From contig JAHBUL010000011.1 in NCBI GenBank assembly GCA_019638085.1, forward strand, positions 62,001 through 126,000: 64,000 nt of DNA. Reading direction: 5' to 3'. The position numbers and the translations under genes are program-made. The notes under the pieces are model-generated. The model did no database searches, was not told the origin of the DNA, and worked only from the letters and a program-made list of their open reading frames with translations. Shown here piece after piece: positions 13,617 to 64,000 of the stretch (positions are counted from its first letter, which is position 1; every line of letters begins with the position of its first letter). Source of the DNA: Flavobacteriales bacterium (GTDB taxonomy: Bacteria; Bacteroidota; Bacteroidia; Flavobacteriales_F; PHOS-HE28).

Positions 13617-13619
13617 ATC

Positions 13620-19632: not shown

Positions 19633-19675
19633 AAAGGATTTCCTTTACAAACCCAACACGGCTTGTTCCGGGGTG

Positions 19676-19683
19676 CAAGATTA
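19676..19683 (-). promoter_or_regulatory. -7 element candidate for nhaA
   Basis: TAATCTTG on the minus strand, one mismatch to TAnnTTTG, 43 bases upstream of nhaA. Confidence 0.3.
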
Positions 19684-19703
19684 AGCAACGCCGGGGAAGG
19701 CAT

Positions 19704-19711
19704 TTACTTTG
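19704..19711 (+). promoter_or_regulatory. -7 element candidate for the CDF gene
   Basis: TTACTTTG lies 5 bases before the ATG at 19717 and differs by one base from TAnnTTTG. The same eight bases lie upstream of the ATG at 61679. Use of this site would give an almost leaderless transcript. Confidence 0.3.
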
Positions 19712-19716
19712 GCAAC

Positions 19717-20700: not shown

Positions 20701-20727
20701 GGAGCGCACGCTTCCAACACCTTGGGT

Positions 20728-20763
20728 AAAACAACAAAACCCCGTTCGGGGTTTTGTTGTTTT
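20728..20763. terminator. Bidirectional rho-independent terminator
   Basis: A perfect 16-base stem (AAAACAACAAAACCCC with its complement) around the loop GTTC, with A-rich left and T-rich right arms. It can end both the CDF gene (+) and the tRNA-His gene (-). Confidence 0.9.
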
Positions 20764-20764
20764 G

Positions 20765-20839
20765 GGTGGAAGACCGGGCTTGAACCGGCGACCTCCGGAA
20801 TCACAATCCGGCGCTCTAACCAACTGAGCTACATCCACC
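20765..20839 (-). tRNA. tRNA-His (anticodon GTG)
   Basis: The minus strand folds as a cloverleaf. The acceptor begins GTGGATG, the D-arm is TAGCTCAGTTGGTTAGAGC, the anticodon stem-loop is CCGGA-TTGTGAT-TCCGG with anticodon GTG, and the T-loop is TTCAAGC. The extra G at -1 opposite discriminator C73 is the identity mark of tRNA-His. CCA is not encoded. One mismatch is visible in the acceptor stem. Confidence 0.97.
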
Positions 20840-20870
20840 ATTTCCGTTCAACCGATGGCCAAACGGGCCG

Positions 20871-20878
20871 CAAATATA
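20871..20878 (-). promoter_or_regulatory. -7 element for tRNA-His
   Basis: TATATTTG on the minus strand is an exact TAnnTTTG match, 32 bases upstream of the mature tRNA 5' end. Confidence 0.55.
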
Positions 20879-20914
20879 GAGGGGAACGGGATACCGACTA
20901 AATTGCCGCCATAG

Positions 20915-47226: not shown

Positions 47227-50200
47227 ATGACCATACCCCCTTGGCCTACACATACCCTTCCCTTCTCTCTGGTCCTTCTATTGGGCCTGGGTACACATAG
47301 CGACGGATTGAAGGCCCAGCCCGTTCCGTTCGATTGGCACTCCGCTGCCATAGCGAACAACATCTCTGGTGATGATGTGCGGGATATTGCGGTGGACACG
47401 GTGAACAACTTCATCTATGCCGTGGGTGTGGTCCATGGCAACGGACCATACGGCCTTCAAGCCTACAATGGCATACCTCCGCTGCTACAAACTCCCCGGC
47501 GTGATGGCTTCCTGATGAAGCTCAACCTGGATGGCTCCCCCGTGTGGGCCAAGACCTTGGGAGGCACCGGTTCCGACGAACTGAATGCCGTGGCCATCGG
47601 TCCCGATGGGAACATCTACGTTACCGGGTCCTATCAGAACAGTTTAAGCCTTACCGGCGTGTTGAATGCCGTTTTCAATCTGGGCTCTGCAGGAGGAAGC
47701 GACATCCTGGTGGCCTCGTACGCGCCCTCTGATGGTTCCTTGAACTGGATCAAAGCAGTTTCGGGGAGCTACGGCAATGATCGCGGCACCGGCATTGTCG
47801 CCTTGCCCTCAGGCGTTTTCATTACCGGAGATTATCGCCGACAGATCTATTTCAACGGCAGCAGCAACTCCGTTGGAGAGATCCATAACAGCCAAAACGT
47901 CTTCATTGCCAAGTACAGCCTGAGCGGGACGTTCATGGCCAGTTGCAGCGGGGGAACGAACAATGACGACTTCGCAGGGAAACTGGCCACCGACGGCACC
48001 CATATCTACACCACTGGCATCTTCAATGACGGTGTGGAGGCTCGTTGGCGCAATCCGAATTCTTCACTGGTCGTGCAATGGAACAACTTGGCCACCTCGA
48101 ACAACGCTTTTGTGCTCAGCGTCAATTCCTCTTGCGTACTGAATTGGGCGAACTACATGTTGAATCCAGTAGGTTCGGACCTCACTGTGGGGGCCATTGC
48201 TGCTGGAGCCGGAGCCTGCGGCAAGATCTACATCGCCGGTGCCACGCACAACAATAGCATTTTCCCTTCCAACGGAACTACGACCCTCCCCGGAAACCCG
48301 CACGACTTCCTGTTCTTGGCCGCCTTGAATAAGACCAACGGGAACACGGCTTGGCTTCGCACTGCCACTGGTCCGGTAAACCATGCGAATACGGGCTTGG
48401 ACCTGGATATTGGCCCGAAGGGTGAAGTGTATCTCGCAGGCACCTACACCAGCCAGATCACATGGGACGACGGAACCACAGCGAGCGGTACCTCGGGAAA
48501 GGAAATGTTCGCTGCCCGGTTCACTTCCTATGGCGAGCGGGAGTGGTTCCTGCCGATCACCGGCGCGAATGATGATGTGCTGCAAGCGGTTGCAGCAGGA
48601 AAGAACGGTGCACTCTTCGTGGGCGGCTATGCAAATACGAACGACCTTCTTCTGGGGCGCGTATCCGATACGGGTACTTCGCTGTGGCCCACGAACCCAT
48701 CCAATTTCAAACTCCCCGCCTCGCATTGCACATCGCTAGGTCCCTTGGATCTGCATTCACTCTTGGTGCCCTTGCATGGTGGAAATGCCGTGGCCGTCAC
48801 CGCTCAAGTGGGACTCTCCAACATCGCCGGTGCTCTTGGCGTGCCTGATGGCGCGGGAACCGAGTTCAGCTCCAACGGTGCTTCACTCACCGTGGACCTG
48901 GGTGAAGAACTGGATACCGGGGGCACGGTACAACTCATCTGGCGAAAGTCCACCGGCGCATCAGGAACCGCTATTCCCAAGGTGGAAGTTTCAGCGGACG
49001 GCCTAACATGGACCACCGTGCCGACCCCTCCCACCACCACGACCGAAACTTTTGCCGGAGGGAACTTCGTGTTGCCTATCGCCACACGTTACGTCCGCGT
49101 GCAGAAAGACGATGCCATCAGTACCACCGCCTTCGTTCTTGATGCCTTCCAATTCAAGACCGGTGCACTCACTGGTGGCACATGGAGCGGCCCCGGCGTT
49201 TCAGGTTCCACATTCTACCCGGCCGGCCTTATCGGCCCGCAGGTCATCACCTACACGGTTTCCTGCTACAGCACCACCAAGGTGATCCAGATAGACCCTC
49301 CATCAGTGGGCGGAACATTGAGCGGAGGAGGTAGCGCCTGCCTCGGGACGGAAATGGAATTATCCCTCACGGGTAATATGGGAAATACAATCATCTGGAA
49401 TGTGAGCACCGATGGTGGCAGCACCTGGTCCGAGGACACCACGGGGCAAGCCACCTATAATGTTCCGGCCATGCTCACGGCCACCCGGGTGCGGGTCCGC
49501 TCCATCAGTGGAAGCTGTGCCGCCGCCATAAGTAACACGGTGCAGGTGGTGGCTGCGGACAATACCGCCCCGGTCCTTGCCGGCTGCCCGGGGAACATCA
49601 CCGTGTACACACCGGCCAACGGCTGTACCGCCACGGTGAATTACACTCTGCCCACCGCAACTGACAATTGCCCCGGCACGCTGAGCATTGTGCCATCGGA
49701 TCCCGCGCATGCATCCGGCGAGCAATTCCCGGTGGGGAATACCGCAGTGACCATAAACGCATCGGACAGCTTTGGGAACGTGTCCAGTTGCAGCTTCACC
49801 ATAACAGTTGTCGATACGATAAGGCCGAGCATATCCTGTCCGCCAGCGGTAACGGTGAGCACCACTACCGGTTGCGCGGCTACCGGCGTAGTACTGGGGA
49901 CACCGGTCACCAACGACAACTGTGGCCCGATCACCATGACGAACAATGCTCCTGCTGCATTCCCATTAGGGATCACCCATGTGGTGTGGACCGCCACGGA
50001 TGCCAGCGGGAACAGCCGAACATGTATACAGCAGGTAACCGTAACGGACAACACGCCACCCAGCATTACCTGCCCTGCGGACAAGAGCACTTCGGCCAAT
50101 GCCGGCTGTACCGCAACGGGCGTAAACCTTGGAACTCCGGTGACCGCGGACAATTGCGCGATCGCCTCCGTGACGAACAATTCAACATCCTCCTACACCT

Positions 50201-53200
50201 TGGGGATCACAACGGTGACGTGGACCGTAACGGATAATTCCGGGAACAGCAGCACTTGCACGCAACGCATCACGGTGATCGACATCACGCCGCCGACGCT
50301 GAGTTGTCCTGCGGCCATTCAGGTGGCGGCCAACAACGGCTGCGCTGCAACCGGGGTGGACCTTGGCCAGCCCGTAGCCACGGACAACTGCGAGGTGACC
50401 TCGCTGACGAACGACGCTCCTGCCGCCTTCCCACTTGGAACGACCACCATAACATGGACCGCGACGGATGCCGGCGGCAATGTGATCACCTGTGCACAAA
50501 CCGTGACCGTTACGGATACTACCACACCCACGATAGCCTGCCCTGCGAACGTGCAGGCCACGACCAACAGCGGTTGTACAGCCACTGGTGTAGACTTGGG
50601 AACACCTGTAGCAAGCGACAACTGTGCTGGTGTGTCCGTAACGAACAATGCCCCTTCAGCCTTCCCGATAGGAAGCACCGAAGTGATCTGGACCGCCACC
50701 GATGCCAGCGGGAACACGGCAACCTGCACGCAGACCGTGACGGTGACGGACAATGTCCTTCCCTCCATCGCATGCCCTCCAACTGTTCAAGTCTACGTGA
50801 ATGCCGGTTGTACGGCTACGGCGGTGGACTTGGGAACGCCTACCGCCACCGATAACTGCACTGGCGTTACCGTGACCAATGATGCGCCGGCCATCTTCCC
50901 GATCGGTAGTACCACTGTTACGTGGACAGCAACGGATGCAAGTGGCAACACCGCAACATGCGCACAAACGGTGACGGTGACCGACGTGATCGCACCGTTG
51001 ATCAGCGGTCCTGCAGCTGTGCAAATAGCTACCAATGCGGGTTGCACCGCTACCGGCGTGGACCTGGGCACACCCGACTACAGTGATAATTGCACGGGCA
51101 CTACGATCAGCAATGACGCTCCTTCCGCCTTCCCCTTGGGAATCACCACGGTGACCTGGACGGCCACCGATGCCAGCGGGAACAGCGCCACCTCCAGCCA
51201 GACCGTAACGGTGATCGATCAAACGGACCCTGTTGCCATTTGCCAAGAGGCCACCGTGAACGTGGATGCAACGGGATGGGCACATGTGACCACGGACGTG
51301 ATCGACAATGGAAGCTGGGACAATTGCAGCGTGGCTTCGATGAGCGTGGTACCCGCGGACTTCAACACGTTGGGAGATCATACGGTCACCCTTACGGTGG
51401 TGGATGCGGCGGGGAACAGCAGCTCCTGCACGACACTTGTTCACGTAGTGGACAACGCTCCGCCCACGGCCATCTGCTCCGACCTCACCGTCCACTTGGA
51501 TCCTTCCGGGGAAGCATCCATCGATGCACAGGAATTGGATGGCGGCAGCACGGATAACGGCAGCATCGTAGCCTACGATGCAAGCACAACACAGTTCACT
51601 TGTGCGGACATCGGCACATTCGCTGACACGCTTTTCGTGACCGACAACGGAGGCAACACCAGCTTTTGCATCGCACAGGTCACCGTGCTGGATACCGTAG
51701 CACCGCAGGCACAGGGGCAGAGCATCGATGCATTCCTCAATGCTTCCGGCGAGGCAACTATCGCTGCCAGCGAACTAGACAACGGCAGTAACGATGCCTG
51801 TGGGCCGCTCACCTTCAGTGCTTCAAACACCACGTTCACGTGCGCGGACATCGGTATCGTGGACCTCCTGCTCACGGTGGCGGATGCGAGTGGCAACAGC
51901 TCCACTGCCAGCACACAGGTTACCGTACAAGACACCATCGCCCCCGTGTCGCTGTGTCAATCCGCAACGGCCTATCTGGATGCGAACGGCTTCACATCCA
52001 TTTCAGCTTCGGATGTGGATGCGGGCAGCACGGACAACTGCGCCATCGGCACGCGCGAGGTAGTGCCGTCGGTGCTGCAAGGTGCTGGCGACCATGCCGT
52101 ACAACTGTTCATCACCGATGGTTCGGGCAACAGCCACTCCTGCACGGCAGTGGTCACTGTGCTGGATACGATCGCACCCGTAGCGCTCTGCCGGGACACG
52201 CTTCTTCAACTCGGCTCTTCCGGCACGGCCACCCTCTATGCGATGGACCTGGACGGCGGATCCAGCGACAACGACAGCATCACCCATTGGGCCGCCAGCC
52301 AGTTGGTTTTCGGCTGCGCCGATCTTGGGGTGAACAGCGACACGCTCTTTGTGACCGACGGCAGTGGCAACACCTCCTTCTGTATCTCCACCGTTACGGT
52401 GATGGATCCCAACCCGGTGAATGCCGGAGCGGATAGCACTGCGGACTTCTGCAACGTGGGTGCCTCCACATCGCTATTCCCTTACGTGGGCCCTGATGGA
52501 CAAGCTGGAGGCAGTTGGTGGTTCCAAGGCCAACCCGTTCCCGGGGAGTTCGATCCGGCGGTGGATGCACCGGGAGCCTATCTCTACACGGTGACCAACA
52601 CCAGTGGCTGCCTTGTGGACAGCGCAATAGTGACCACCGTGATCCATACCACGGCCGATCCCGGACAGGATACCAGCATCACGGTCTGCTGTAATGACGC
52701 CACCCTATCTCTCATCACCCTCTTGCCGGGCGCCGATCCCGGTGGGGTCTGGAGCAACGGAACCGGCCTATTTGATCCGGCCATGGCTGGTTCTGGCCAG
52801 GTGCTTTACACGGTGGATGGCCCGGTCGGATGCCCATCGGCCACGGCCACTGTCTCCATCCTTGTGAATGCGGCACCCGATGCGGGTACGGGAAGCAGCT
52901 TGACGCTCTGCACGGTTGCTGATCCAGTAAGCCTCTTCTCCGCCTTACAGGGAAACCCGGATGCAAGTGGACAATGGACGGACCCGAGCGGCCAGGCCAT
53001 CAGCGAGGTCTTCGACCCGGCCACGATGGGCGCAGGTGCCTACACGTATACCGTGAGCGGCATGGCCCCCTGTTCACAAGCAAGCAGCGTGGTGATCATT
53101 GCGTTGACCTCACAGCCTTCCGCGGCGTGGAGCACACCGGACCCGATCTGTTCCTCCGCTGCTGCGATCGATCTTAATGCACTCGTTACCGGAGTGGCCG

Positions 53201-54114
53201 GTGGCACATGGAGCGGTCCGGGAATAACGGCTGGAAGCGCGCAGTTCGATCCCGGAAGCCTACCCCTACAGGGAGCATCAACCCTGTTCGACATCACTTA
53301 CACCGCATCGGAGAATGGATGTGACGCCAGTACCACGGGCCCTATCACCGTGCTGGCAGCCCCCGTTGCAGATGCGGGTGATGACCACTCCGCTTGCGGC
53401 CTTACTGCAATTCTGAACGCTTCCCTTGACTTCGGCACAGGACACTGGAGCGCCGGCAGCGACGTGGTCTTCAGTGACGTGAATGCCTCGGACGCAGTGG
53501 CCCACGTAACGGCACCGGGCAGTTATGAAATGCACTGGACCGTCACCAATGGCCAATGCAGCAATTCCGATCCCGTGCTTGTGACCTTCCACGTGCCTGA
53601 ACAACTGGGCGAAGTGGATGCTGGTCCGGATGAGAGCTGGAACATCAAGCGCGACTCCCAACTACAGGGTGTTGCCGAGGGTGCCACGGAAACGCGCTGG
53701 ACACTGCTTGGCGGATCGGGGTACATCCACGACCCGGCGGCACTTGCCACTGCAGTAAGCGACCTGGCGATCGGTGCCAACACCTTCATGCTCAGTGCGC
53801 GCGTTGGCGTGTGTCCTTTCAAAATGGATACGGTGGTGCTGGTGATCCGTGACTTCTTCATCCCCTCCGGCTACTCGCCCAATGGCGATGGCGTGAACGA
53901 CAACTTCGAGATCATCGGCATCGATGTGTACCGCGACAATGAACTCACGGTCTTCAACCGCTGGGGGCAGGTGGTGTACCAGGCCGTGGGCTATGCCAAC
54001 CAATGGAACGGACAGGCCAACAACGGTTCGCCGCTCATGGACGACACCTACTTCTATGTGCTGAAGTTCAACGAGGACGCCACGTATAACGGACAGGTGA
54101 TCATCAAGCGATGA
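47227..54114 (+). CDS. Giant HYR-repeat surface protein with T9SS type B sorting domain
   Basis: A 2295-residue secreted protein. The signal peptide ends near DGLKAQPVPF. Residues 30-490 form a beta-propeller of SBBP-like repeats (GGTGSDELNAVAIGPDGNIY). A galactose-binding-like segment follows at about 530-650. Residues 777-1410 hold HYR repeats (CPANVQATTNSGCTATGVDL, WTATDASGNTATCTQTVTV). Next come related FTCADIG repeats, WSGPGI-type Ig-like segments and a T9SS type B domain (IPSGYSPNGDGVNDNFEI, TVFNRWGQVVYQ). It is predicted to be displayed on the surface as a long adhesive stalk. The frame is open back to 46906, but only the ATG at 47227 gives a signal peptide. Its stop overlaps the PorP/SprF start by 4 bases. 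Confidence 0.93.
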   Translation: MTIPPWPTHTLPFSLVLLLGLGTHSDGLKAQPVPFDWHSAAIANNISGDDVRDIAVDTVNNFIYAVGVVHGNGPYGLQAYNGIPPLLQTPRRDGFLMKLNLDGSPVWAKTLGGTGSDELNAVAIGPDGNIYVTGSYQNSLSLTGVLNAVFNLGSAGGSDILVASYAPSDGSLNWIKAVSGSYGNDRGTGIVALPSGVFITGDYRRQIYFNGSSNSVGEIHNSQNVFIAKYSLSGTFMASCSGGTNNDDFAGKLATDGTHIYTTGIFNDGVEARWRNPNSSLVVQWNNLATSNNAFVLSVNSSCVLNWANYMLNPVGSDLTVGAIAAGAGACGKIYIAGATHNNSIFPSNGTTTLPGNPHDFLFLAALNKTNGNTAWLRTATGPVNHANTGLDLDIGPKGEVYLAGTYTSQITWDDGTTASGTSGKEMFAARFTSYGEREWFLPITGANDDVLQAVAAGKNGALFVGGYANTNDLLLGRVSDTGTSLWPTNPSNFKLPASHCTSLGPLDLHSLLVPLHGGNAVAVTAQVGLSNIAGALGVPDGAGTEFSSNGASLTVDLGEELDTGGTVQLIWRKSTGASGTAIPKVEVSADGLTWTTVPTPPTTTTETFAGGNFVLPIATRYVRVQKDDAISTTAFVLDAFQFKTGALTGGTWSGPGVSGSTFYPAGLIGPQVITYTVSCYSTTKVIQIDPPSVGGTLSGGGSACLGTEMELSLTGNMGNTIIWNVSTDGGSTWSEDTTGQATYNVPAMLTATRVRVRSISGSCAAAISNTVQVVAADNTAPVLAGCPGNITVYTPANGCTATVNYTLPTATDNCPGTLSIVPSDPAHASGEQFPVGNTAVTINASDSFGNVSSCSFTITVVDTIRPSISCPPAVTVSTTTGCAATGVVLGTPVTNDNCGPITMTNNAPAAFPLGITHVVWTATDASGNSRTCIQQVTVTDNTPPSITCPADKSTSANAGCTATGVNLGTPVTADNCAIASVTNNSTSSYTLGITTVTWTVTDNSGNSSTCTQRITVIDITPPTLSCPAAIQVAANNGCAATGVDLGQPVATDNCEVTSLTNDAPAAFPLGTTTITWTATDAGGNVITCAQTVTVTDTTTPTIACPANVQATTNSGCTATGVDLGTPVASDNCAGVSVTNNAPSAFPIGSTEVIWTATDASGNTATCTQTVTVTDNVLPSIACPPTVQVYVNAGCTATAVDLGTPTATDNCTGVTVTNDAPAIFPIGSTTVTWTATDASGNTATCAQTVTVTDVIAPLISGPAAVQIATNAGCTATGVDLGTPDYSDNCTGTTISNDAPSAFPLGITTVTWTATDASGNSATSSQTVTVIDQTDPVAICQEATVNVDATGWAHVTTDVIDNGSWDNCSVASMSVVPADFNTLGDHTVTLTVVDAAGNSSSCTTLVHVVDNAPPTAICSDLTVHLDPSGEASIDAQELDGGSTDNGSIVAYDASTTQFTCADIGTFADTLFVTDNGGNTSFCIAQVTVLDTVAPQAQGQSIDAFLNASGEATIAASELDNGSNDACGPLTFSASNTTFTCADIGIVDLLLTVADASGNSSTASTQVTVQDTIAPVSLCQSATAYLDANGFTSISASDVDAGSTDNCAIGTREVVPSVLQGAGDHAVQLFITDGSGNSHSCTAVVTVLDTIAPVALCRDTLLQLGSSGTATLYAMDLDGGSSDNDSITHWAASQLVFGCADLGVNSDTLFVTDGSGNTSFCISTVTVMDPNPVNAGADSTADFCNVGASTSLFPYVGPDGQAGGSWWFQGQPVPGEFDPAVDAPGAYLYTVTNTSGCLVDSAIVTTVIHTTADPGQDTSITVCCNDATLSLITLLPGADPGGVWSNGTGLFDPAMAGSGQVLYTVDGPVGCPSATATVSILVNAAPDAGTGSSLTLCTVADPVSLFSALQGNPDASGQWTDPSGQAISEVFDPATMGAGAYTYTVSGMAPCSQASSVVIIALTSQPSAAWSTPDPICSSAAAIDLNALVTGVAGGTWSGPGITAGSAQFDPGSLPLQGASTLFDITYTASENGCDASTTGPITVLAAPVADAGDDHSACGLTAILNASLDFGTGHWSAGSDVVFSDVNASDAVAHVTAPGSYEMHWTVTNGQCSNSDPVLVTFHVPEQLGEVDAGPDESWNIKRDSQLQGVAEGATETRWTLLGGSGYIHDPAALATAVSDLAIGANTFMLSARVGVCPFKMDTVVLVIRDFFIPSGYSPNGDGVNDNFEIIGIDVYRDNELTVFNRWGQVVYQAVGYANQWNGQANNGSPLMDDTYFYVLKFNEDATYNGQVIIKR
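49813..51450 (+). repeat. HYR coding repeats with exact 234-base period
   Basis: The Asp that opens each unit (DTIRP, DNTPP, DITPP, DTTTP, DNVLP, DVIAP, DQTDP) is at 49813, 50047, 50281, 50515, 50749, 50983 and 51217, so six successive spacings are exactly 234 bases (78 residues). Confidence 0.95.
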
Positions 54115-55034
54115 AACTGGAACGCTTCATATGGACATGTTGCACCTTGCTGCTTGCAGCGGTGACCTTCGGGCAGCATACACCGCTGACCACGCAGTAC
54201 CTCTTCAATGGCCTGCTGATCAATCCGGCGTATGCCGGTAGCCGTGAGGCACTCACGGCCACGCTCAGTTATCGCCACCAATGGGTCGGCTTCGAGGGCG
54301 CGCCCACCACACAGATCCTCAGCATCCATTCCCCGTTGAACGCGAAGAAAATAGCGCTGGGGCTGGTGGTGCATAACGACCGCATCGGCGTGAGCCGCGA
54401 GAGCGGCGTGATGAGCAACTACGCCTATCGCATGCGCTTGGGTAGCGGCAAGCTGGCCTTGGGTTTGGGTCTGGGCTTGAAGATGATGCAGGCGGATTGG
54501 ACGGCCGTGCGCACGGTAACACCCGGCGATGTGGAATTCGCGACGGACAGCCGCAGTGTACTGGAACCCAAGTTCAGCGCGGGTGCCTACTACTCCAATT
54601 CCCGCTGGTTCGCCGGGCTTTCGCTGCCGTACTTCCTGGGCCAAAGCCGCGACATCGGGAATGACCGCTGGGAAATGACCAAGATCGTGGATCAGTATCA
54701 GCCCATGCTCACGGCGGGCTATCTGCTGGAGGTGGACCGCGATATCAAATTGAAGCCTTCGGTGCTGATCCGGAAAGCGGGTGGTGAAGAGGCCCAGGCC
54801 GACCTCAACCTCAACATGATCTGGAAGGGCATGTTCTGGCTCGGTGCCAGCTACCGGACGGATGATGCCGTGTGCCTCTCGCTGCAAGTAATGCCGAACA
54901 AGCAATTCACCATCGGTTACTCGTACGACATGGCCACCAGCGCGATCAGTGGGTATCAGCACGGCACGCATGAGGTGATGCTGCAATATGAATTCGGCTT
55001 TGCGGTGAAGGCCAAGGACCCCCGCTACTTCTGA
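54111..55034 (+). CDS. PorP/SprF family T9SS outer-membrane protein
   Basis: A 307-residue barrel with a signal peptide (ends near VTFGQH) and the family start TTQYLFNGLLINPAYAGSRE. Later family features are LSYRHQWVGFEGAPTTQILS and the C-terminal HEVMLQYEFGF. It overlaps the giant adhesin in ATGA and the OmpA gene in TGATG, so translation is probably coupled. It is a different paralogue from the one at 13620. Confidence 0.93.
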   Translation: MKLERFIWTCCTLLLAAVTFGQHTPLTTQYLFNGLLINPAYAGSREALTATLSYRHQWVGFEGAPTTQILSIHSPLNAKKIALGLVVHNDRIGVSRESGVMSNYAYRMRLGSGKLALGLGLGLKMMQADWTAVRTVTPGDVEFATDSRSVLEPKFSAGAYYSNSRWFAGLSLPYFLGQSRDIGNDRWEMTKIVDQYQPMLTAGYLLEVDRDIKLKPSVLIRKAGGEEAQADLNLNMIWKGMFWLGASYRTDDAVCLSLQVMPNKQFTIGYSYDMATSAISGYQHGTHEVMLQYEFGFAVKAKDPRYF

Positions 55035-57196
55035 TGCTGGCGCGCTACCTCTTCCTCCTGCTCCTGCTGTCGGCCTTCCCGGCGGCGTCCCAAGTGCTGT
55101 ACATGGTGGAGCCGTTGGATATCCGCCCTGCCGGCGAGGACTATGCGCCCACCTTGGTGGACAGCAACCTGGTGATCACCTCCATACGCCAGCGGGCACA
55201 GGCCATCGCCTACACCGCTGCCGGTTCGGACCTGCCCTTGGCAGACATTTACCTGGTCCCGTTGCGCAGCGGGAAACCCGGAACACCGCGCCTGATGGAC
55301 GGAACGCTGTGCACCCCGTTCAACGATGGGCCGGCGGCCTTCACGGCCAGTGGCGATACCATCTGCTTCACCCGGAACCTTCCGGTGGGCCGCCGTTCCT
55401 CCGATCATTTGGGGCTCTTCTTCGCCGTGAAGCAGGAAAAGGAATGGTCCGAGGTCACTGCATTCGAGCACAACGGTACAGGCTTCTCCACCATGGCCCC
55501 CGCCTTCAGCCGGGATGGCCGTTCGCTCTACTTCGCATCCGACCGCCCCGGAGGCCATGGCGGCATGGACCTGTATGAAAGCCGAAGAGGACCCGATGGC
55601 TGGTCCGCCCCGAAGAATTTGGGGCCGGAGGTGAACAGCACAGCCAACGAGGCTTTCCCCTCCATCGGCGGGAACGGCGAGCTCTTCTTCTCTTCGGACC
55701 GGGCCGGAGGCATGGGGCAGTTGGACATCTACACGTCCCATTTCGAATACGGTGAATACGCGGTACCGGTGGCGCTTCCTGCACCCGTGAACTCCGCAGG
55801 GAATGACCTCGGCTACACCACCTATGCCGACGGCGAGTCCGGCTTCTTCAGTTCCAACCGCGACGGTCGCGACCGCATCCACCGGTTTGCGCGCAAGCCG
55901 CAGCCCTTCCACGATTGCGTGCCGCAGGAAACGAACAGTTACTGCTTCCATTTCGAGGATGTGGGATCCACCGGGACCGATTCACTACCGCTACGCTACG
56001 AATGGGACTTCGGCGATGGGAACACCGCGCGCGGTCTGTCCACCAACCATTGCTACGGCGACAATGGCATCTATACCGTGAAGCTGAACCTGATCGACAC
56101 GCTCAGCCAGAGCGTCTACTTCAACCAAGTGAGCTACGAGCTGGAGGTGCTGGACGAGGAACAGGCCCACATCCATTCGCCTGATAGCATCGGAACGGGT
56201 ACATCGGTGGTATTCGATACGCAGCATACCAACCTTCCCGGCTTCGAACCCGTGGAGACACATTGGGACCTGGGCGACGGGACATTCACAACGGGCGAGC
56301 AGGTGGCCCATGTTTTCGCGCAAGCGGGCAGCTATACCGTACGGCTCGACCTGATCGGCGGACCCGATGGGAAGGGCGGATATGTGAACCACTGCGTCAC
56401 CCGCACGGTACATGTGATCGATGGGCTGATCGCGACACCTGGATACATCAATGCATCCGCCGGCGGCAATGGTGGCGGGCGCGCATTCACCTACAGCGAA
56501 CTGCCGTTCGACAATGCCCACCTCGGAGCGCAGGGTGCGCAGGACGTCACCTACACCGTGCAACTGCTGGCCTCCAAGGATCGCTTGGGGCTGAACGACG
56601 CGCGCTTCATTCCGGTGCGCCCGTACTACTCCATCACCGAACGCTTCCTGCCCTCGGTGCGCGAATACACCTACTCCATCGGCACGGGTACCACACCGCT
56701 GTCCGTGTACAATGCGTATCAACTGGCGCGCCGTTCCGGCTTTACGGAAAGCGTGGTGAAGGGCTTGGAAGTGGAAAAGGACCTGGAACTCATACAGGCG
56801 GAAAGCTTGCCGGTGGAAGCCTTGAACAAAGGGTTCCTGAAGTTCTCCACCGTCCGGTTCCGCACCGGCGAGAGCAATTTCGACCCCAGCTTCAACGCCA
56901 CGCTGGACCGCGTGTTGGCCATCCTGCAGAAGTACACGGAGGTGGAACTGGTTATAGAGGCCCATACGGACGCCATTGGTGAGGACATGGCCAATTTGGC
57001 CCTTTCGCAGGCCCGCGCACAGAAGATCACGGACTACTTCATCACACACGGGATCACCACGGACCGCTTGGTGCCCATCGGCTATGGCGAGGAACACCCC
57101 GTGGCGGACAACAACACCGAAGCCGGACGTGCGCGGAACCGCCGGGTGGAATTCCACATTTCCGTACGCGATCACTCAACCCCTCCCACACCATGA
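55034..57196 (+). CDS. OmpA-family envelope protein with PD40 propeller and PKD domains
   Basis: A 720-residue secreted protein. The signal peptide ends near FPAASQ. Residues 100-280 have WD40/PD40-like repeats (FSRDGRSLYFASDRPGGHGG, LFFSSDRAGGMGQLDIY). Two PKD domains follow (YEWDFGDGNT at about 318, THWDLGDGTF at about 408). The C-terminus is an OmpA-type peptidoglycan-binding domain (LVIEAHTDAIGEDMANLALS, GRARNRRVEFHI). This resembles the T9SS protein PorE, but I see no TPR. Its likely role is to anchor the outer-membrane complex to peptidoglycan. It overlaps its neighbours by 1 and 4 bases. Confidence 0.88.
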   Translation: MLARYLFLLLLLSAFPAASQVLYMVEPLDIRPAGEDYAPTLVDSNLVITSIRQRAQAIAYTAAGSDLPLADIYLVPLRSGKPGTPRLMDGTLCTPFNDGPAAFTASGDTICFTRNLPVGRRSSDHLGLFFAVKQEKEWSEVTAFEHNGTGFSTMAPAFSRDGRSLYFASDRPGGHGGMDLYESRRGPDGWSAPKNLGPEVNSTANEAFPSIGGNGELFFSSDRAGGMGQLDIYTSHFEYGEYAVPVALPAPVNSAGNDLGYTTYADGESGFFSSNRDGRDRIHRFARKPQPFHDCVPQETNSYCFHFEDVGSTGTDSLPLRYEWDFGDGNTARGLSTNHCYGDNGIYTVKLNLIDTLSQSVYFNQVSYELEVLDEEQAHIHSPDSIGTGTSVVFDTQHTNLPGFEPVETHWDLGDGTFTTGEQVAHVFAQAGSYTVRLDLIGGPDGKGGYVNHCVTRTVHVIDGLIATPGYINASAGGNGGGRAFTYSELPFDNAHLGAQGAQDVTYTVQLLASKDRLGLNDARFIPVRPYYSITERFLPSVREYTYSIGTGTTPLSVYNAYQLARRSGFTESVVKGLEVEKDLELIQAESLPVEALNKGFLKFSTVRFRTGESNFDPSFNATLDRVLAILQKYTEVELVIEAHTDAIGEDMANLALSQARAQKITDYFITHGITTDRLVPIGYGEEHPVADNNTEAGRARNRRVEFHISVRDHSTPPTP

Positions 57197-58161
57197 TACG
57201 ACGCCTGATCCTCCTGGCCGTCATGGCACTTTCAGCCTGGCTATGCCGTGCACAGCCCGTACCGGCCAGTGATGAGAACATTCCTTGGCTGGTCACCTTC
57301 GGCGCCCGGAGCCAGACCTCCTGGGGTGACGATGACTTCTGCCAGACCTTCTTCTTCGTGGTGCCCAAGAGCACGGTCGTGCCGATCTACATCCGCGTGT
57401 TCGATCCCGATTGCTCGGGTGCCATTGATGAAGCCAAGGGCGAATTCAACACCGTCACCAATTTCTCCGTGTATGGCGGCAAGGGTTGCATCTCCGATCC
57501 GGACGCGCGCGAAACCGATCCCGTAGGCAACTACCGAAGCGGCAATCTGCTCGCCACGCGTGACTTCGGTGCGGACAGCCAGTACGACCAGAAGTGGTAC
57601 ACCTTCGGCCCCTTCGACCCGAACTCCGGGGAGGACATGCCCGAATACAGCGGCCGAGTCTTCAAAGTGATCGCCCAAGGGAAAAGCGGTGACGATGGCA
57701 ATTTGTACCGCTACTTCATGAGTTCCAGGCCGGATGCCAACGAAGCGATCGAGGGGGGGAATGCGTTCACCTTCGAATACAGCTTCCGGCTGCACGACGA
57801 TCCGAAAGAAGTGTCGCACATCTACCCTTATGTGGATGAGCGCGTGATCAGCGTAAAGCAGAGCAACTTCGATTGGGATGGCGATGGCTCGGTCCGTCTG
57901 GTCTCGGTAGCGAAGAAGGGTGATGCCGTGACCACCAGCGGGGACGACCAATGGGTGAGCAGCGTGCATCCGATCGTGAAACAGGAGCTGAACACCTCGT
58001 TGGACATCCGCTTCATCAAGCGGTCCGACGGGGCGGTGCGGAACAACAACGTGGTCTTCTACATCCGTAACCAATACGGTGCCTTGCTTCCCTTCTTCAC
58101 CGTGCCCATTGGTGGCGTGCCGCAATACAAACCCACCATCGCGGTCACCAAGATCAAATGA
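57193..58161 (+). CDS. Secreted protein of unknown function in the adhesin operon
   Basis: A 322-residue protein with a signal peptide (ends near LCRAQPVP). It is mostly beta-type sequence with acidic loops, including FDPDCSGAIDEAKGEF and SNFDWDGDGSVRLVSV, which may bind Ca2+. Two Cys occur in VFDPDCSG and GGKGCISDP. It has no sorting domain and no recognised family. It overlaps both neighbours by ATGA, so it is translated as part of the unit. Confidence 0.75.
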   Translation: MIRRLILLAVMALSAWLCRAQPVPASDENIPWLVTFGARSQTSWGDDDFCQTFFFVVPKSTVVPIYIRVFDPDCSGAIDEAKGEFNTVTNFSVYGGKGCISDPDARETDPVGNYRSGNLLATRDFGADSQYDQKWYTFGPFDPNSGEDMPEYSGRVFKVIAQGKSGDDGNLYRYFMSSRPDANEAIEGGNAFTFEYSFRLHDDPKEVSHIYPYVDERVISVKQSNFDWDGDGSVRLVSVAKKGDAVTTSGDDQWVSSVHPIVKQELNTSLDIRFIKRSDGAVRNNNVVFYIRNQYGALLPFFTVPIGGVPQYKPTIAVTKIK

Positions 58162-61100
58162 GGTCGCCCCTTCCTCGGATCATCCTTACGGCATGCACGG
58201 CGGCCCTTGTGGGGCTTGCGGTAGGCCAGACCTATAAACTGAAGTCCGTAGGGCCTGCGGAAGGCTTGACCAACCCTTTCGTACACGCATTGGCCCAGGA
58301 TGCCACGGGGCGCCTATGGATCGGCACGGGCGATGGTGCCGGCCGCTACGATGGGCAGCGCGTCACCATGTTCACCACGGCGGACAGCTTGGCGGAGAAC
58401 TTCGTATCCACCATTCATCCCGGGGCTGATGGCAAGATCTGGTTCGGCCATAGCGAAGGTGGGATCTCGATCTACGAGAACGGCGTATTCCGCAAGGTCC
58501 GAACGGAGGAACACAGCAACAGTAGCATCAATGCGATCGTGGATGATGGCCAAGGCGGCATCTGGGCGGTGGCGCAGAACAAAGGCATCCTGCACGTGGA
58601 TGCCCATGATGAATGCCGCGTAGTGGTCGCCAAGACCCACATCCAGTGGTACAGCCTGTTGGTCCTGAACGCCAACAGCTTGCTGGCCGGCACCAGCGAT
58701 GGCCTGCATCTGCTTCAACGTGAAAAGAGCGGTTCATTCTCCATCTCCCCCGTCCTGAGCGAGGTGACCACCGCTCCCGTACACAGCCTGCTCATGGAGC
58801 AGAACGGCGAGCGCATCCACGCCGGTACCGAAGGTGCGGGTGTAATGACCTTCGGGTTAAAGGACGGGCGGATAAGCAACGTGGCCCAGCTCGGCACCGC
58901 TGCGGGCCTGGGTGAACTGCGCATCCGCGACATGCAGATCGGAACCTATGGCCAGCTCATCCTGGGCACTTTCGGCAATGGCGCCTACGAGATCGAGCTG
59001 CAGGGTGACAGCATCACCGCACTGCTGCACTACAGCCAGGAGAACGGCTTGGGCACCGACAACGTGAGCGTGGTGCTGCCCGATAGCGAGAACAACCTGT
59101 GGTTCGGGCGCTTCGGCATGGGCTTGGCGAGGCTGCTGGACCGTGCCGTGGTGTACTACGCCGCGGACGGCGCTGCTGCACAGGATGTGCGGGCGATCAC
59201 CTTCAGCGGAAACGACATCTGGTTCTCCATTACCGGCAAGATCCTGCATGCCAACAGCAACGACATGCGCCACATGGACACCTTGGGCGTGGCGAACGGC
59301 CTGCCGGATACGGAGATCAGTGCGCTGGCCACCGATACAAGTGGGCGCATCCTGGCAGGCACCGCGAACAACGGCCTCTACAGGCAGGATGGCAACGGGC
59401 GATTCATGCCCGTGGCCATCGGGAACGACCTGATGAGCCGGAAGATCCACGCCATCGTGGTGAAAGGGGATGAGATCTGGGTGGGCACCAGCTATGGCGT
59501 GTACCTGCTCAGCCCGCGTGGCAACCGCCACCTCACCACCGCGAACGGGCTGCTGCATAACGAGGTGAATGCACTTTACCTGGAAGCGAACGGCCACATC
59601 TGGGCAGCGTGCAACAACGGTGGCGTCAGCGTGATCAGCGGCGACGATGTGAAGAGCTTCACGCTTACCGAGCAGGGCAATTCGGTCCACGTTACGGGCA
59701 TCACCCAGGATAGCTTGGGTACCCTATGGTTCAGCACGAACGGCAATGGGGTCCGCTACATCAAAGGAGGTGTGGTGCTGGGCGTGAGCAAAGCGGATGG
59801 TCTGCATTCCGACTACGTCCAAGCCATCGCCTCGGACGGACATGGAGGTATTTGGGCCGCCCATCGCGGGGGAGCCAGCCGCGTGGGTCGCGACGACCAT
59901 AAAGTAATGGCCTTCGCCGACCAGTTCGGGATCGAACCGGACCGGCGGATGAACGCCATTGCCAAAGGCCCGTACGGCCACATGTGGTTCGCTACGGACA
60001 AGGGGCTGTTGCGGTATACCTCCATGAAGGATGTACACAGCGTGCGTACCCCTACGGCCATTATCACGGGCGTGAAGGTCTCCGGACGGGACATGCCGCC
60101 CGACCGGTCCATCGACCTTCCGCCGGACATCTATCGCATTCAGTTCGACTTTCTCGGGATCAGCTTGGCCAACCCCGATGGGGTGCGCTACCGCTACAAG
60201 CTGGAAGGGTACGACCTGGATTGGACCGAGACCACCTTGGGCTCGGCCCACTACATGCGCATCAGCGAAGGGAACTACACGCTGCAGGTACAAGCGGCCA
60301 TGATCGGTGGTGATTTCACCGGCAACACGGCGCGGTTGGCGATCACCGTTCAAACGCCAGTGTGGAAGCGCCATTGGTTCATCGCGCTATGCGTCATCGC
60401 TTTGCTCGCTGCGATCTCCGGCTTCATCCGCTTGCGCGAGCGCAGGCAACGCAAGAACCGCGAACTCCTCAAGAAAAGCTTGAAGGAGCGGACCAAGGAG
60501 CTGCAGGCCAAGTCCGACGAACTCGAGGAGAAGAACAAGGACATCACCGACAGCATCACCTATGCACGCCGCATCCAGCAGGCCATCCTTCCGCAGGAGG
60601 ACATCCTCGCCGAGCACTTTCCCAACTCCTTCATCTTCTATCGCCCACGGGATATCGTGAGCGGCGACTTCTACTGGTTCCGCCGCTTCGGCACCAAGTT
60701 CATCCTGGCCTGTGCGGACTGTACCGGCCACGGCGTGCCCGGCGCGTTCATGAGCATGATCGGCAGCATGCTCCTGCGGGAAGTAAGTGCGGAAAAAGAG
60801 GTGAACTCACCCGATGTGCTGCTCACCAACCTGGACAATGAATTGCGCGCAGTGCTCCGGTATCAGGGAGAGAACCAATACAACCATGACGGCATGGACA
60901 TCAGCCTGTGCGAGATCGATATGGAGACAAGGCTGCTGCGGTCCTCCGCCGCCATGCACGACCTGTTGATCCTGCGCAATGGCAAGCTGCTACGCGAGCG
61001 CGGCACCCGGCGTTCCATCGGCGGGGTGATGGAGGAAGGTGTTGAGCAGCACTTCAACAGGTTCGAGATCCCGTTGGAACCGGGCGACCGGATCTTCCTC

Positions 61101-61298
61101 TTCACCGATGGCATGCCGGACCAATTCGGAGGCGCGAAGGGAAAGAAGTTGAAGATCTCCGGCCTCACCGAATGGATCGAGGAGACCGCACCCCTACCAA
61201 TGGATGAACAGGCCAGTTTGCTGCGTTTCCGCTTCGAGGAATGGATCGGCGAGCAGGCCCAAGTGGATGATGTGCTCCTGATCGGCATTGAAGTTTAG
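58158..61298 (+). CDS. Membrane-anchored sensor: two-component-type propeller, Y_Y_Y domain and SpoIIE/PP2C phosphatase
   Basis: A 1046-residue signalling protein. After the signal segment (ends near AVGQ), residues 30-620 form propeller repeats (HALAQDATGRLWIGT, NSVHVTGITQDSLGTLWFST). A Y_Y_Y domain follows at about 655-730 (FLGISLANPDGVRYRYKLEG). One membrane helix lies at about 737-752, then a coiled coil (SLKERTKELQAKSDELEEK) and a PP2C domain of the SpoIIE/RsbU type. Its metal-binding motifs are intact (VSGDFYW, CADCTGHGVPGAF, LFTDGMPDQFGG, QVDDVLLIGIEV). It should sense an outside signal and dephosphorylate a cytoplasmic protein. No histidine kinase domain is present. Confidence 0.9.
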   Translation: MRSPLPRIILTACTAALVGLAVGQTYKLKSVGPAEGLTNPFVHALAQDATGRLWIGTGDGAGRYDGQRVTMFTTADSLAENFVSTIHPGADGKIWFGHSEGGISIYENGVFRKVRTEEHSNSSINAIVDDGQGGIWAVAQNKGILHVDAHDECRVVVAKTHIQWYSLLVLNANSLLAGTSDGLHLLQREKSGSFSISPVLSEVTTAPVHSLLMEQNGERIHAGTEGAGVMTFGLKDGRISNVAQLGTAAGLGELRIRDMQIGTYGQLILGTFGNGAYEIELQGDSITALLHYSQENGLGTDNVSVVLPDSENNLWFGRFGMGLARLLDRAVVYYAADGAAAQDVRAITFSGNDIWFSITGKILHANSNDMRHMDTLGVANGLPDTEISALATDTSGRILAGTANNGLYRQDGNGRFMPVAIGNDLMSRKIHAIVVKGDEIWVGTSYGVYLLSPRGNRHLTTANGLLHNEVNALYLEANGHIWAACNNGGVSVISGDDVKSFTLTEQGNSVHVTGITQDSLGTLWFSTNGNGVRYIKGGVVLGVSKADGLHSDYVQAIASDGHGGIWAAHRGGASRVGRDDHKVMAFADQFGIEPDRRMNAIAKGPYGHMWFATDKGLLRYTSMKDVHSVRTPTAIITGVKVSGRDMPPDRSIDLPPDIYRIQFDFLGISLANPDGVRYRYKLEGYDLDWTETTLGSAHYMRISEGNYTLQVQAAMIGGDFTGNTARLAITVQTPVWKRHWFIALCVIALLAAISGFIRLRERRQRKNRELLKKSLKERTKELQAKSDELEEKNKDITDSITYARRIQQAILPQEDILAEHFPNSFIFYRPRDIVSGDFYWFRRFGTKFILACADCTGHGVPGAFMSMIGSMLLREVSAEKEVNSPDVLLTNLDNELRAVLRYQGENQYNHDGMDISLCEIDMETRLLRSSAAMHDLLILRNGKLLRERGTRRSIGGVMEEGVEQHFNRFEIPLEPGDRIFLFTDGMPDQFGGAKGKKLKISGLTEWIEETAPLPMDEQASLLRFRFEEWIGEQAQVDDVLLIGIEV

Positions 61299-61366: not shown

Positions 61367-61561
61367 ACCACGGATGTACACGGACCGATACGTATCGGGC
61401 CCACACGGATAAATGCCGTTCTGCGGCCAATTCCTATTGGATCGACTTACCCCGCTTTCAAGTTCGGTGGCTTGGACCAAGCGAAGTGGAAAGAATGGCT
61501 GCGACCCCTCCGTTTCTCTGACAAGCTCCGGTATCCGTGTGCATCCGTGTCCATCCGTGGT
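61367..61561. repeat. Paired ACCACGGATG inverted repeat
   Basis: ACCACGGATGTACACGGA pairs with TCCGTGTCCATCCGTGGT at 17 of 18 positions, with about 159 bases between the arms. This motif type is widely dispersed in bacterial genomes. Confidence 0.6.
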
Positions 61562-61654
61562 CCCATACATATCGGACCAGCAACTAAAGCTTGTCCGCCC
61601 GCAGGGCGACAAGCCCGCCCGGCAAGGGCCTTTCCACCATGTGACAACGCTTGG

Positions 61655-61662
61655 TTACTTTG
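61655..61662 (+). promoter_or_regulatory. -7 element candidate for the last gene
   Basis: TTACTTTG, one mismatch to TAnnTTTG, ends 16 bases before the ATG at 61679. Confidence 0.35.
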
Positions 61663-61678
61663 GGGCGTCTCATTACCG

Positions 61679-64000
61679 ATGCGTCCCTCCCGCCTTTTGC
61701 TTTTGCTTGCCCTGCTGCCGTGCCTTGAGCTGGCCGCACAACCTGCGCTGCGCTTCATTGAGAACCGAGGGCAATGGCCCGCCGAGGTGGCCTTCCGTGC
61801 GGAGGCGCCCGATGCCATGCTCTGGATCGAACCGGGGGCCATTCTGATCGATCGCTTTGATGCAGCGGCCATCGCGAAGCACCATGCGGGGCATGGGGAC
61901 ACCTATGATCCCAATGCCTCACGCACCATCCGGCACCATGCGCTTCGCCTGCGTTTCCGCGATGCTTCAGGCCCTGCGCGCAGCGAAGGCATCGGCGTGC
62001 AACAGGACAGCTACAATTACTTCCTCGGGAAGGATGAAAGCCGCTGGGCATCCAATGCCCATGCCTTCTCCGCCGTGGTGCAGCACGACCTCTACCCCGG
62101 TATCGACCTGCGTCTCCGGCGTGGCGGCGAAGTGTTGAAGTACGACCTGGTGGTGGCACCGGGTGCCGATCCGGCGCAGGCGCGCTTCACCTACGATGGC
62201 GCGGAAAGCGTGGCTTTGAAGGATGGGAAGCTCATCATCGGCACCTCCTTGGGCGATCTGATCGATGAGCTGCCCCTCGCCTACCAGCTGAAGGATGGCC
62301 AACAGCAGCGGGTGGATTGCCGCTATGCGCTGAAGGCTGGCATCGTCTCCTTCGTCGTGGGCGCCTACGATCCGCAGCTGGAGCTGGTGATCGATCCCAC
62401 CATCGCCTTCAGCAGCTATTCCGGTTCCACCTCGGATAATTTCGGCTACTCCGCCACCTTCGACGACCAAGGCTTTCTCTACTCCGGCAGCAGCGCCTTC
62501 GGACAGGGCTACCCCACCACCGTGGGCGCTTATGATGTGACGTGGAACGGCGGCGTGGGCAGCCAGAACCCCGGCACGGACATCGCCCTCAGCAAGTGGG
62601 ACACCACCGGCTCCTTCCTTATCTGGAGCACCTTCCTCGGTGGCAGCGGCGACGACCTCCCCCACAGCTTGATCGTGAACCCTGCCGGGGAACTGGTGGT
62701 GCTCGGCACCACGGGCTCCCCGAACTTCCCCACGACCGCAGGCGCTTTCCAACCTGCGTTCGCCGGCGGCACCCCCTTCACGCCGCAGGGCATCGGTACC
62801 AACTACCCCTTGGGAACGGACATGATCATCTCCCGGCTGAGCGCGGATGGCGCCCAGCTGCTCGGCAGCACCTACATCGGCGGATCCGCCAACGACGGCA
62901 TCAACAACGCGGTGGCCCTGCACTTCAACTATGCGGATGACATGCGCGGCGAAGTGGAGCTAACGCCCGGCGGGAACATCCTGGTGGCCAGTTGCACCCA
63001 GAGCACCGACTTCCCCACCACACCCGGTGCCTTTCGCACCTTCTTCACCGGCGGCAGCCACGATGCCGTCCTCTTCGAGCTGGATCCCGCCCTCACCACC
63101 ATGGTCTGGGGCACCTACTTCGGTGGCTCGCAGGTGGATGCCGCGTACTCCGTGGAGCAGGACAGCAACGGCAACATCTTCATCGCCGGTGGCACCACCT
63201 CCATCAACCTGCCGGTGACGCCCGGTACGGTCTCCACCACCAACAACGGCGGGCAGGCCGATGCCTTCGTGGCCGCCTTCAGTCCCAACGGCAGCACGCT
63301 GCTCGCCTCCACCTACTATGGCAGCACCGGCTACGACCAGTTCTACTTCGTGGGGATCGATGGCGATGACGACATCTACCTCTTCGGCCAGACCAATGCC
63401 CCGGCGGGCGACCTGATCAGCGGTGCCAGCTACTTCGTCTCCACCGGCGGCCAGCTCCTGGCGAAGCTCTCCAACGACCTCACCACCACGCTCTGGAGCT
63501 CGCGCTTCGGCGCGCTTTCCGGCCCCGGTGTCGGGGTGCCGAACATCTCGCCCACGGCCTTCCTGGTGGACTATTGCGACAAGATCTACATCAGCGGCTG
63601 GGGCAGCGCCGTGTTGGGCACCCTCACCACCAACGGCCTGCCCGTTACCCCCGATGCCTTCCAGACCACTACCGACGGCAACGACTTCTACCTCGCCGTG
63701 TTCGACATCAACATGACGGGCCTCTCCTACGCCACCTACTTCGGCGGCAGCCAGAGCTTCGAGCACGTGGACGGCGGCACCAGCCGCTTCGACCGGCGCG
63801 GACGGGTCTACGGCGCGGTGTGCGCCGGCTGCGGAAGCCACGATGATTTCCCCACCACCCCCAATGCCCTCAGCAGCACCAACAACTCCTTCAACTGCAA
63901 CCTCGGCGTGTTCAAGTTCGATTTTGAAGCACCGCTGGTGATCGCCGATCCCGGTGCGCCCGCGCCGCTATGCGCGGGTGGAGCGTTCCAGTTCACCAAC
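61679..64000 (+). CDS. DUF7948 / SBBP beta-propeller surface protein, 3' end outside the window
   Basis: The frame is open from an ATG at 61679 to the end of the window (at least 774 residues). The signal peptide is MRPSRLLLLLALLPCLEL followed by AAQPA. The start of the mature part, RFIENRGQWPAEVAFRAE, is the mark of the DUF7948 family. Propeller-type repeats follow from about residue 250 (FSSYSGSTSDNFGYSATFDD, GTYFGGSQVDAAYSV). Proteins of this type in Bacteroidota usually end with PKD repeats and a T9SS type B domain, but that part is not visible. It lies downstream of the operon terminator and has its own promoter candidate. Confidence 0.88.
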   Translation, partial: MRPSRLLLLLALLPCLELAAQPALRFIENRGQWPAEVAFRAEAPDAMLWIEPGAILIDRFDAAAIAKHHAGHGDTYDPNASRTIRHHALRLRFRDASGPARSEGIGVQQDSYNYFLGKDESRWASNAHAFSAVVQHDLYPGIDLRLRRGGEVLKYDLVVAPGADPAQARFTYDGAESVALKDGKLIIGTSLGDLIDELPLAYQLKDGQQQRVDCRYALKAGIVSFVVGAYDPQLELVIDPTIAFSSYSGSTSDNFGYSATFDDQGFLYSGSSAFGQGYPTTVGAYDVTWNGGVGSQNPGTDIALSKWDTTGSFLIWSTFLGGSGDDLPHSLIVNPAGELVVLGTTGSPNFPTTAGAFQPAFAGGTPFTPQGIGTNYPLGTDMIISRLSADGAQLLGSTYIGGSANDGINNAVALHFNYADDMRGEVELTPGGNILVASCTQSTDFPTTPGAFRTFFTGGSHDAVLFELDPALTTMVWGTYFGGSQVDAAYSVEQDSNGNIFIAGGTTSINLPVTPGTVSTTNNGGQADAFVAAFSPNGSTLLASTYYGSTGYDQFYFVGIDGDDDIYLFGQTNAPAGDLISGASYFVSTGGQLLAKLSNDLTTTLWSSRFGALSGPGVGVPNISPTAFLVDYCDKIYISGWGSAVLGTLTTNGLPVTPDAFQTTTDGNDFYLAVFDINMTGLSYATYFGGSQSFEHVDGGTSRFDRRGRVYGAVCAGCGSHDDFPTTPNALSSTNNSFNCNLGVFKFDFEAPLVIADPGAPAPLCAGGAFQFTN

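Follow-up and report, generated by a model that had tools for sequence, protein, structure and literature searches.

An adhesin-associated gene unit with an unnamed exported protein and a sensor phosphatase in Bacteroidota

We analyzed a 64,000-nucleotide stretch of contig JAHBUL010000011.1 from a Flavobacteriales bacterium (positions 62,001 to 126,000; hereafter, the window), in which five genes on the same strand (47227-61298, +) encode a type B adhesin of the type IX secretion system (T9SS), a PorP/SprF outer-membrane barrel, a PorE-like periplasmic protein, an exported 322-residue protein (U322), and a membrane sensor phosphatase. The new element is that a known trio of surface genes is coupled, through U322, to a double-propeller receptor of the hybrid two-component system type with a SiaA-type PP2C output. 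We describe the gene order, domains, conservation, and co-occurrence of these genes, together with the predicted receptor fold, the conserved phosphatase residues, and the exchange of one output for another. The gene-level facts are strong, while the mechanism is one that we infer from them: with moderate confidence, we propose that the five genes form a trans-envelope sensing unit in which U322 acts as an exported co-sensor, linking the receptor, and through it the dephosphorylation of SiaC, either to the state of the surface complex or to a bound ligand. The unit, its junctions, and its right border are as follows (aa, amino acids).

47227..54114, +: T9SS type B adhesin, about 2295 aa; eight HYR repeats, an F5/8-like domain, and a CHU_C/TIGR04131 sorting domain
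54111-54114: ATGA, adhesin/SprF junction
54111..55034, +: PorP/SprF outer-membrane barrel, 307 aa; PF11751 at 239 bits, TIGR03519 over its cut-off
55032-55036: TGATG, SprF/PorE-like junction
55034..57196, +: PorE-like periplasmic protein, 720 aa; PD40 propeller, two PKD domains, and a C-terminal OmpA domain
57193-57196: ATGA, PorE-like/U322 junction
57193..58161, +: U322, exported protein of an unnamed family, 322 aa; signal peptide with Q at +1, predicted tandem beta-sandwich
58158-58161: ATGA, U322/sensor junction
58158..61298, +: membrane sensor phosphatase, 1046 aa; two beta-propellers, Y_Y_Y, a membrane helix, a coiled coil, and a SiaA-type PP2C domain
61559..64000, +, running past the window: right border, outside the unit; DUF7948/SBBP T9SS protein found by domain search

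A check of the open reading frames (ORFs) recovered the five genes and the stop/start overlap at all four junctions exactly as a first-pass annotation of the window had given them. Its domain calls (type B adhesin, PorP/SprF, OmpA/PD40/PKD, and Y_Y_Y-SpoIIE) were borne out by Pfam and NCBIfam, in which the sensor protein matches Reg_prop, Y_Y_Y, and SpoIIE, and the 322-residue protein that it had left unrecognized matches no family in Pfam, NCBIfam, or PHROGs. Upstream, the reading frame of the adhesin stays open as far as a GTG at 46906; a signal-peptide-like stretch follows the ATG at 47227, which is a plausible start. The C-terminal domain of the adhesin scores 58.3 bits against the type B model TIGR04131 (cut-off 35), and the barrel scores 242.7 bits against TIGR03519 (cut-off 90.55). 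The third protein reaches 210 of the 600 bits set for the PorE model NF052230, and hence we call it only PorE-like. The window also holds a second adhesin-barrel pair at 8679-14621 (+), which consists of a 1645-aa SprB-repeat/PKD/CHU_C protein and a PorP/SprF gene that begins 3 bases later.

Conservation of the five genes

Scanning one genome per species yielded 149 relatives of U322, which rules out that the unit is peculiar to the genome of the window. The 80 most similar of them were kept, with flanks of up to 10 kb, so that the more distant relatives are less sampled for adjacency. Homologues of the five proteins were sought by phmmer with the single sequences of the window, a procedure by which weak adhesin and SprF relatives were possibly missed. 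The record titles of the U322 loci name Flavobacteriales, Bacteroidales, Marinilabiliaceae, Cytophagales, and others, and U322 is present in named strains of Marinilabilia, Alkalitalea, Labilibaculum, Breznakibacter, and Flexithrix. A sensor-type gene lies directly after U322 in 76 of the 80 loci (median gap, 4.5 nucleotides) and a PorE-like gene directly before it in 59 (median gap, 9 nucleotides). All five genes were detected in 45 loci, and many of the others are cut by contig ends or are without the upstream trio. Thus, the five genes recur as neighbors, a point that the first-pass annotation had proposed to check, and the 322-residue protein is tied to the sensor.

As a control, the loci were dereplicated at a threshold of 80% U322 identity, which left 61 from several orders, and all neighboring ORFs in them were sorted into families. 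U322 is present in all 61, the sensor in 57, the PorE-like gene in 47, SprF in 43, and the adhesin in at least 36 (two smaller adhesin groups add 5 and 3), and the next commonest neighbor family occurs in only 7. Given that five families are this frequent and the next one is so rare, the unit has sharp borders and is not a product of chance.

The order of the five genes is conserved, and in this respect the idea that they are a single unit stood, but it did not hold for U322 and the sensor, which are separable from the rest. Among loci with more than 2 kb of upstream sequence, 18 have no PorE-like gene directly before U322; three of these (L043, L046, and L080) have the adhesin-SprF pair directly upstream, one (L057) has a rearranged order, and 14 are without the trio. 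The genus of the window gives the converse picture, since most of its members have the PorE-like gene without U322. The trio is common in this genus, and a full-length PorE-like orthologue (more than 550 bits) was found in 35 of its 45 genomes, while U322 was found in four. Among 35 genus members (including the genome of the window), the full-length sensor orthologue is present in the same four genomes that bear U322 and in none of the 31 without it, in which sensor matches are only partial or weaker. In the three genomes without U322 whose synteny was inspected (L134, L135, and L136), the adhesin, SprF, and PorE-like genes are followed directly by a DUF7948-type T9SS gene, and in the window the U322-sensor pair lies between these two neighbors. 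Because the pair is jointly absent or present between fixed neighbors, it is a two-gene module inside a constant locus, and in this genus neither U322 nor the full-length sensor was found without the other. Beyond the unit, an ORF that matches OmpA comes after the DUF7948/SBBP-type gene (window 61559-64000; L138:3560-10820), and in relatives the DUF7948-type gene precedes one more gene, of about 350-420 aa, and a gene of the OmpA type.

It might still be argued that the genes share a location without sharing a function, through chance or through a hitch-hiking operon, given that unrelated genes can be found in the same operon. The sharp borders of conservation across 61 dereplicated loci from several orders, as well as the paired presence and absence of U322 and the sensor within one genus, make this explanation highly improbable.

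The presence of a peptidoglycan anchor, which the first-pass annotation took to be part of the unit, turned out not to be constant. Of the 59 PorE-like proteins encoded directly upstream of U322, 22 showed an OmpA domain in a one-sequence phmmer search, which possibly missed divergent OmpA domains. The common form has about 470 residues and, in the three examples examined with Pfam, contains PD40-PKD-PKD only; a fourth protein, of 650 residues, gave a weak OmpA match just below the cut-off. Since OmpA was detected in only this fraction, the anchor is not a defining part of the unit, and we rejected it as an essential one.

U322, its receptor, and an exchangeable output

In an alignment of 81 U322 sequences, no two of which are less than 44% identical, 70 columns exceed 95% identity, and the residue immediately after the signal peptide is an invariant Gln. 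In this phylum, Gln follows the cleavage site in signal peptidase I substrates, the so-called Q rule (PMC5837995), and thus U322 is probably exported through signal peptidase I. Two other routes were considered and rejected: its C terminus matches no sorting domain in Pfam or NCBIfam, as a T9SS substrate would, and the invariant Q after the signal peptide, in place of a lipobox Cys, argues against a lipoprotein. U322 matches no sequence in the PDB (the best profile-search hit has an E value of 0.29). Its AlphaFold model, with a predicted local distance difference test (pLDDT) score of 90.8, consists of two beta-sandwiches in tandem. The structural matches found with Foldseek and VIA are weak, the best having a Z score of 5.5 over 111 residues. 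Z scores below 8 fall in the range of common arrangements, and the absence of a strong match proves nothing.

In other classes of the phylum, a U322 domain forms the N terminus of proteins that are about 1600 residues long and rich in PKD repeats, of which the single example scanned has 15. For instance, the U322-PKD genes of L108, L109, L110, and L112 adjoin genes for histidine kinases or cyclases of the Cache-HAMP or HAMP type, receiver-SpoIIE proteins are also encoded nearby in L108 and L110, and the opposite strand of L114 encodes a LuxR-type regulator and a propeller histidine kinase close to the U322-PKD gene. The recurrence of U322 beside differing signal transducers supports a role in signaling. 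The fusion also recalls the PKD-bearing PorE-like neighbor found in Bacteroidia, although PKD is a common domain. LysM-FecR-Glucodextran_B-type proteins are also encoded near the giant U322-PKD genes of L108, L109, L110, and L112.

The receptor model (pLDDT 83.9), built from an alignment (A2) that includes one kinase-type protein (L036), has two propellers, a Y_Y_Y domain, a membrane helix near residues 739-760, a coiled coil, and a PP2C domain. In Foldseek searches, the best match of the ectodomain is the hybrid two-component protein BT4663 (E value 2.5e-44), and that of the catalytic part is the SiaA-PP2C domain of P. aeruginosa, 6k4e (TMt 0.89, 31% identity). By sequence, 6k4e is also the sole PDB match of the receptor at an E value of 0.001 or below (1.3e-38). 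The metal-binding acids of PP2C are kept in 24 of the 25 aligned rows, the exception being the kinase. The full-length SiaA model NF038263 was not reached (189 of 700 bits, over the C-terminal half only). The sensor of the window has the periplasmic double propeller and Y_Y_Y by which hybrid two-component sensors are recognized, with SpoIIE in place of the histidine kinase-receiver-AraC output, which among the genes that follow U322 is present only in L072.

These folds invite the main alternative, according to which U322 is a periplasmic protein that binds a glycan or other small ligand and delivers it to the receptor, the trio being co-regulated as the main output of the receptor and not itself sensed. 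Its tandem beta-sandwich weakly resembles carbohydrate-binding jelly rolls (Z up to 5.5), BT4663 is heparin-sensing according to its PDB title, and the 14 loci with a U322-sensor pair and no trio fit this explanation. Nevertheless, a resemblance at this level of Z is within the range of common arrangements, and both the PorE-like gene adjoining U322 in 59 of the 80 loci and the U322-PKD fusions of other classes point to a protein partner. We regard ligand delivery as possible, if somewhat doubtful.

The output of the receptor can be exchanged. Of the 76 genes that directly follow U322, 63 encode a detected SpoIIE domain. Among the other 13, eight are truncated or have a broken frame, and the remaining five encode intact proteins with other outputs: L036, L067, L068, and L086 have histidine kinases, and L072 has a protein with the entire hybrid two-component architecture. 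In an ectodomain tree of 38 rows, one clade (support 100/100) holds 24 U322-adjacent SpoIIE forms, four U322-adjacent kinase forms, and two second sensors (L057 and L067), with L072 and seven other sensors outside it; the rows were chosen so as to include 24 of the adjacent SpoIIE-type sensors and only nine non-adjacent ones, two of these in U322 loci, and the long branches of L061 and L031 were possibly joined falsely. Kinase forms are nested among SpoIIE forms, and the kinase L086 is sister to the SpoIIE sensor of L057. Because a single ectodomain clade goes with either SpoIIE or a kinase, U322 tracks the ectodomain and not the output, and a contact outside the cytoplasm is therefore likely. 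The hybrid of L072 would be a separate recruitment. A tandem arrangement is found at L067:6386-12785, where a kinase-type and a SpoIIE-type propeller sensor, both in the U322-linked clade, follow U322.

This pattern also bears on whether U322 could be an assembly factor of the adhesin-SprF-PorE complex, with the phosphatase as a separate regulator that is merely co-transcribed. Three loci (L055, L058, and L081) keep the PorE-like gene and U322 with no neighboring sensor, in line with this explanation. However, the sensor adjoins U322 more often than the PorE-like gene does (76 versus 59 of the 80 loci), most genomes of the genus have the PorE-like orthologue without U322, and, L072 excepted, the U322-adjacent ectodomains form one clade whatever the output. 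An assembly role is thus unlikely.

A proposed route from the cell surface to SiaC

The substrate of SiaA is SiaC, which is phosphorylated by SiaB on residue T68 (PMC7647112). A SiaC-family gene abuts the cassette in five of the 80 loci: it immediately precedes the adhesin in L047, L061, and L105, immediately precedes U322 in L040, and immediately follows U322 in L083. Another genome (G051; L140) has SiaC after the phosphatase, in the order adhesin, SprF, PorE-like, U322, SpoIIE, SiaC. Within the 1.32 Mb covered by the loci, eight SiaC genes were found versus about 2.7 expected from a base rate of 37 in approximately 17.9 Mb of five U322-bearing genomes outside the genus. At the position of the phosphorylated residue, 13 aligned SiaC sequences have Thr (nine) or Ser (four). 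The genome of the window encodes three SiaC proteins, three DUF6272 proteins, including a SiaB-SiaC pair, and four SpoIIE proteins (G000 C7:93200-94005, C36:9535, C33:142750), which together make up a set of the SiaA/B/C type that lacks the known partner SiaD. In L040, two tandem SiaC genes followed by an adhesin-like ORF (18677-20950) lie about 7.7 kb downstream of U322. SiaC is a plausible substrate of the sensor, but the link is not exclusive, since two of the three other SpoIIE proteins of this genome resemble SiaA too. We rejected cyclic di-GMP (c-di-GMP) as the output, since no GGDEF domain was found in the genome of the window by a search that was positive in eight of 14 named genomes used as a control.

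By analogy with other bacteria, the adhesin of our favored scheme would be secreted by the T9SS and held on the surface by SprF, to which the PorE-like PD40/PKD protein would bind in the periplasm. Once exported by signal peptidase I, U322 would lie between this surface complex on one side and, on the other, the double-propeller ectodomain of the receptor in the inner membrane. Adhesin engagement, complex assembly, or a bound glycan would cause U322 to bind or to be released, and this would alter the receptor. The SiaA-type PP2C domain may then dephosphorylate a SiaC-family protein that had been phosphorylated by a SiaB-family kinase, and this protein would in turn switch a partner, which is unlikely to be a SiaD-type GGDEF enzyme because none was found in the genome of the window. 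The physical contacts, the signal, and the direction of control are all features that we infer. The first-pass annotation had suggested a surface fiber whose state is sensed and reported inward; the swap of outputs under one ectodomain clade and the SiaC genes abutting the cassette favor a trans-envelope signaling role, in which the state of the fiber may be what is sensed.

Several observations weigh against this scheme. The 14 loci that carry the U322-sensor pair without the trio mean that the state of the adhesin cannot be the sole input. Conversely, L055, L058, and L081 carry U322 with no sensor within 3.1, 6.9, and 10 kb downstream, and in L083 the sensor lies upstream of the adhesin and not after U322 (the order being SpoIIE, SiaB-family DUF6272, adhesin, SprF, PorE-like, U322, SiaC). 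No sensor was seen alongside the U322-PKD proteins of L113, L115, L116, and L117. The nearest fold relatives of the receptor sense glycans directly, without a partner protein. As for SiaC, its linkage to the cassette is confined to a minority of loci, the SiaC and DUF6272 genes in the genome of the window are unlinked to the unit, and two of the three other SpoIIE proteins in that genome match SiaA equally well, so that likeness to SiaA does not single out the sensor of the window.

Comparison with known systems

U322 belongs to a strongly conserved unnamed family, and in many species its gene stands between those of a surface complex and that of a receptor, which makes it a concrete candidate relay for signaling from the surface, through the outer membrane, to the inner membrane of Bacteroidota. 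The analysis also suggests SiaC as a substrate for a class of receptor phosphatases. A literature search found no account of the targets of such phosphatases, no paper joining SpoIIE with SprF and Bacteroidetes or SpoIIE with type IX secretion, and, among the papers searched, nothing recognizable as the present gene arrangement. More broadly, and only as a speculation that we think is rather unlikely to hold in full, U322 could represent a new class of trans-envelope relay, that is, a dedicated periplasmic reader of the load or assembly of T9SS-anchored adhesins that passes this state to inner-membrane receptors with interchangeable outputs (phosphatase or kinase), through which attachment would directly control a SiaB/SiaC partner switch in bacteria that have no c-di-GMP synthases.

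Surface T9SS proteins that influence an inner-membrane sensor have a precedent in PorA-PorXY-SigP signaling, where, according to the authors, additional factors should act as mediators (PMC7712824). Unlike the unit described here, that system has a histidine kinase as its sensor, PorA is by the account of that paper distinct from the type B protein of P. gingivalis, and no U322-like relay is named in the portions available of that report (PMC7712824).

The first-pass annotation took the adhesin-SprF pair as established and the anchor gene as an addition to it, but the combination of the pair with a PorE-like gene had already been described (PMC9143113, PMC12618676). In P. gingivalis, PorE, PorP, and PG1035 form a complex (PMC9143113), and in F. 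johnsoniae five operons hold type B, PorP/SprF, and PorE genes (PMC12618676). The unit of the window resembles these in having a protein with a type B C-terminal domain, a PorP/SprF barrel, and a PorE-like protein encoded by the same three genes in what is predicted to be one operon. It differs from them in the addition of U322 and the sensor, neither of which is mentioned for those systems in the accessible parts of the two papers. The PorE of P. gingivalis, as described there, consists of TPR, propeller, carboxypeptidase-regulatory-like, and OmpA-like domains, while the protein of the window is PD40-PKD-PKD-OmpA.

Compared with SiaABCD of P. aeruginosa, as the excerpts available of its descriptions present it (PMC7647112, PMC8457831), the unit shares a PP2C domain with conserved catalytic acids and has SiaB and SiaC families in the genome, sometimes in the same cluster. 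In contrast to SiaABCD, its sensor part is a double-propeller ectodomain, the SiaA model fits the C-terminal half only, and the genome of the window has no GGDEF partner. Finally, the receptor is like the BT4663-type hybrid two-component sensors of Bacteroides in its periplasmic double propeller and Y_Y_Y and its single membrane helix, and it is unlike them in that its output is PP2C instead of kinase-receiver-AraC and in that a conserved gene for an exported partner accompanies it.

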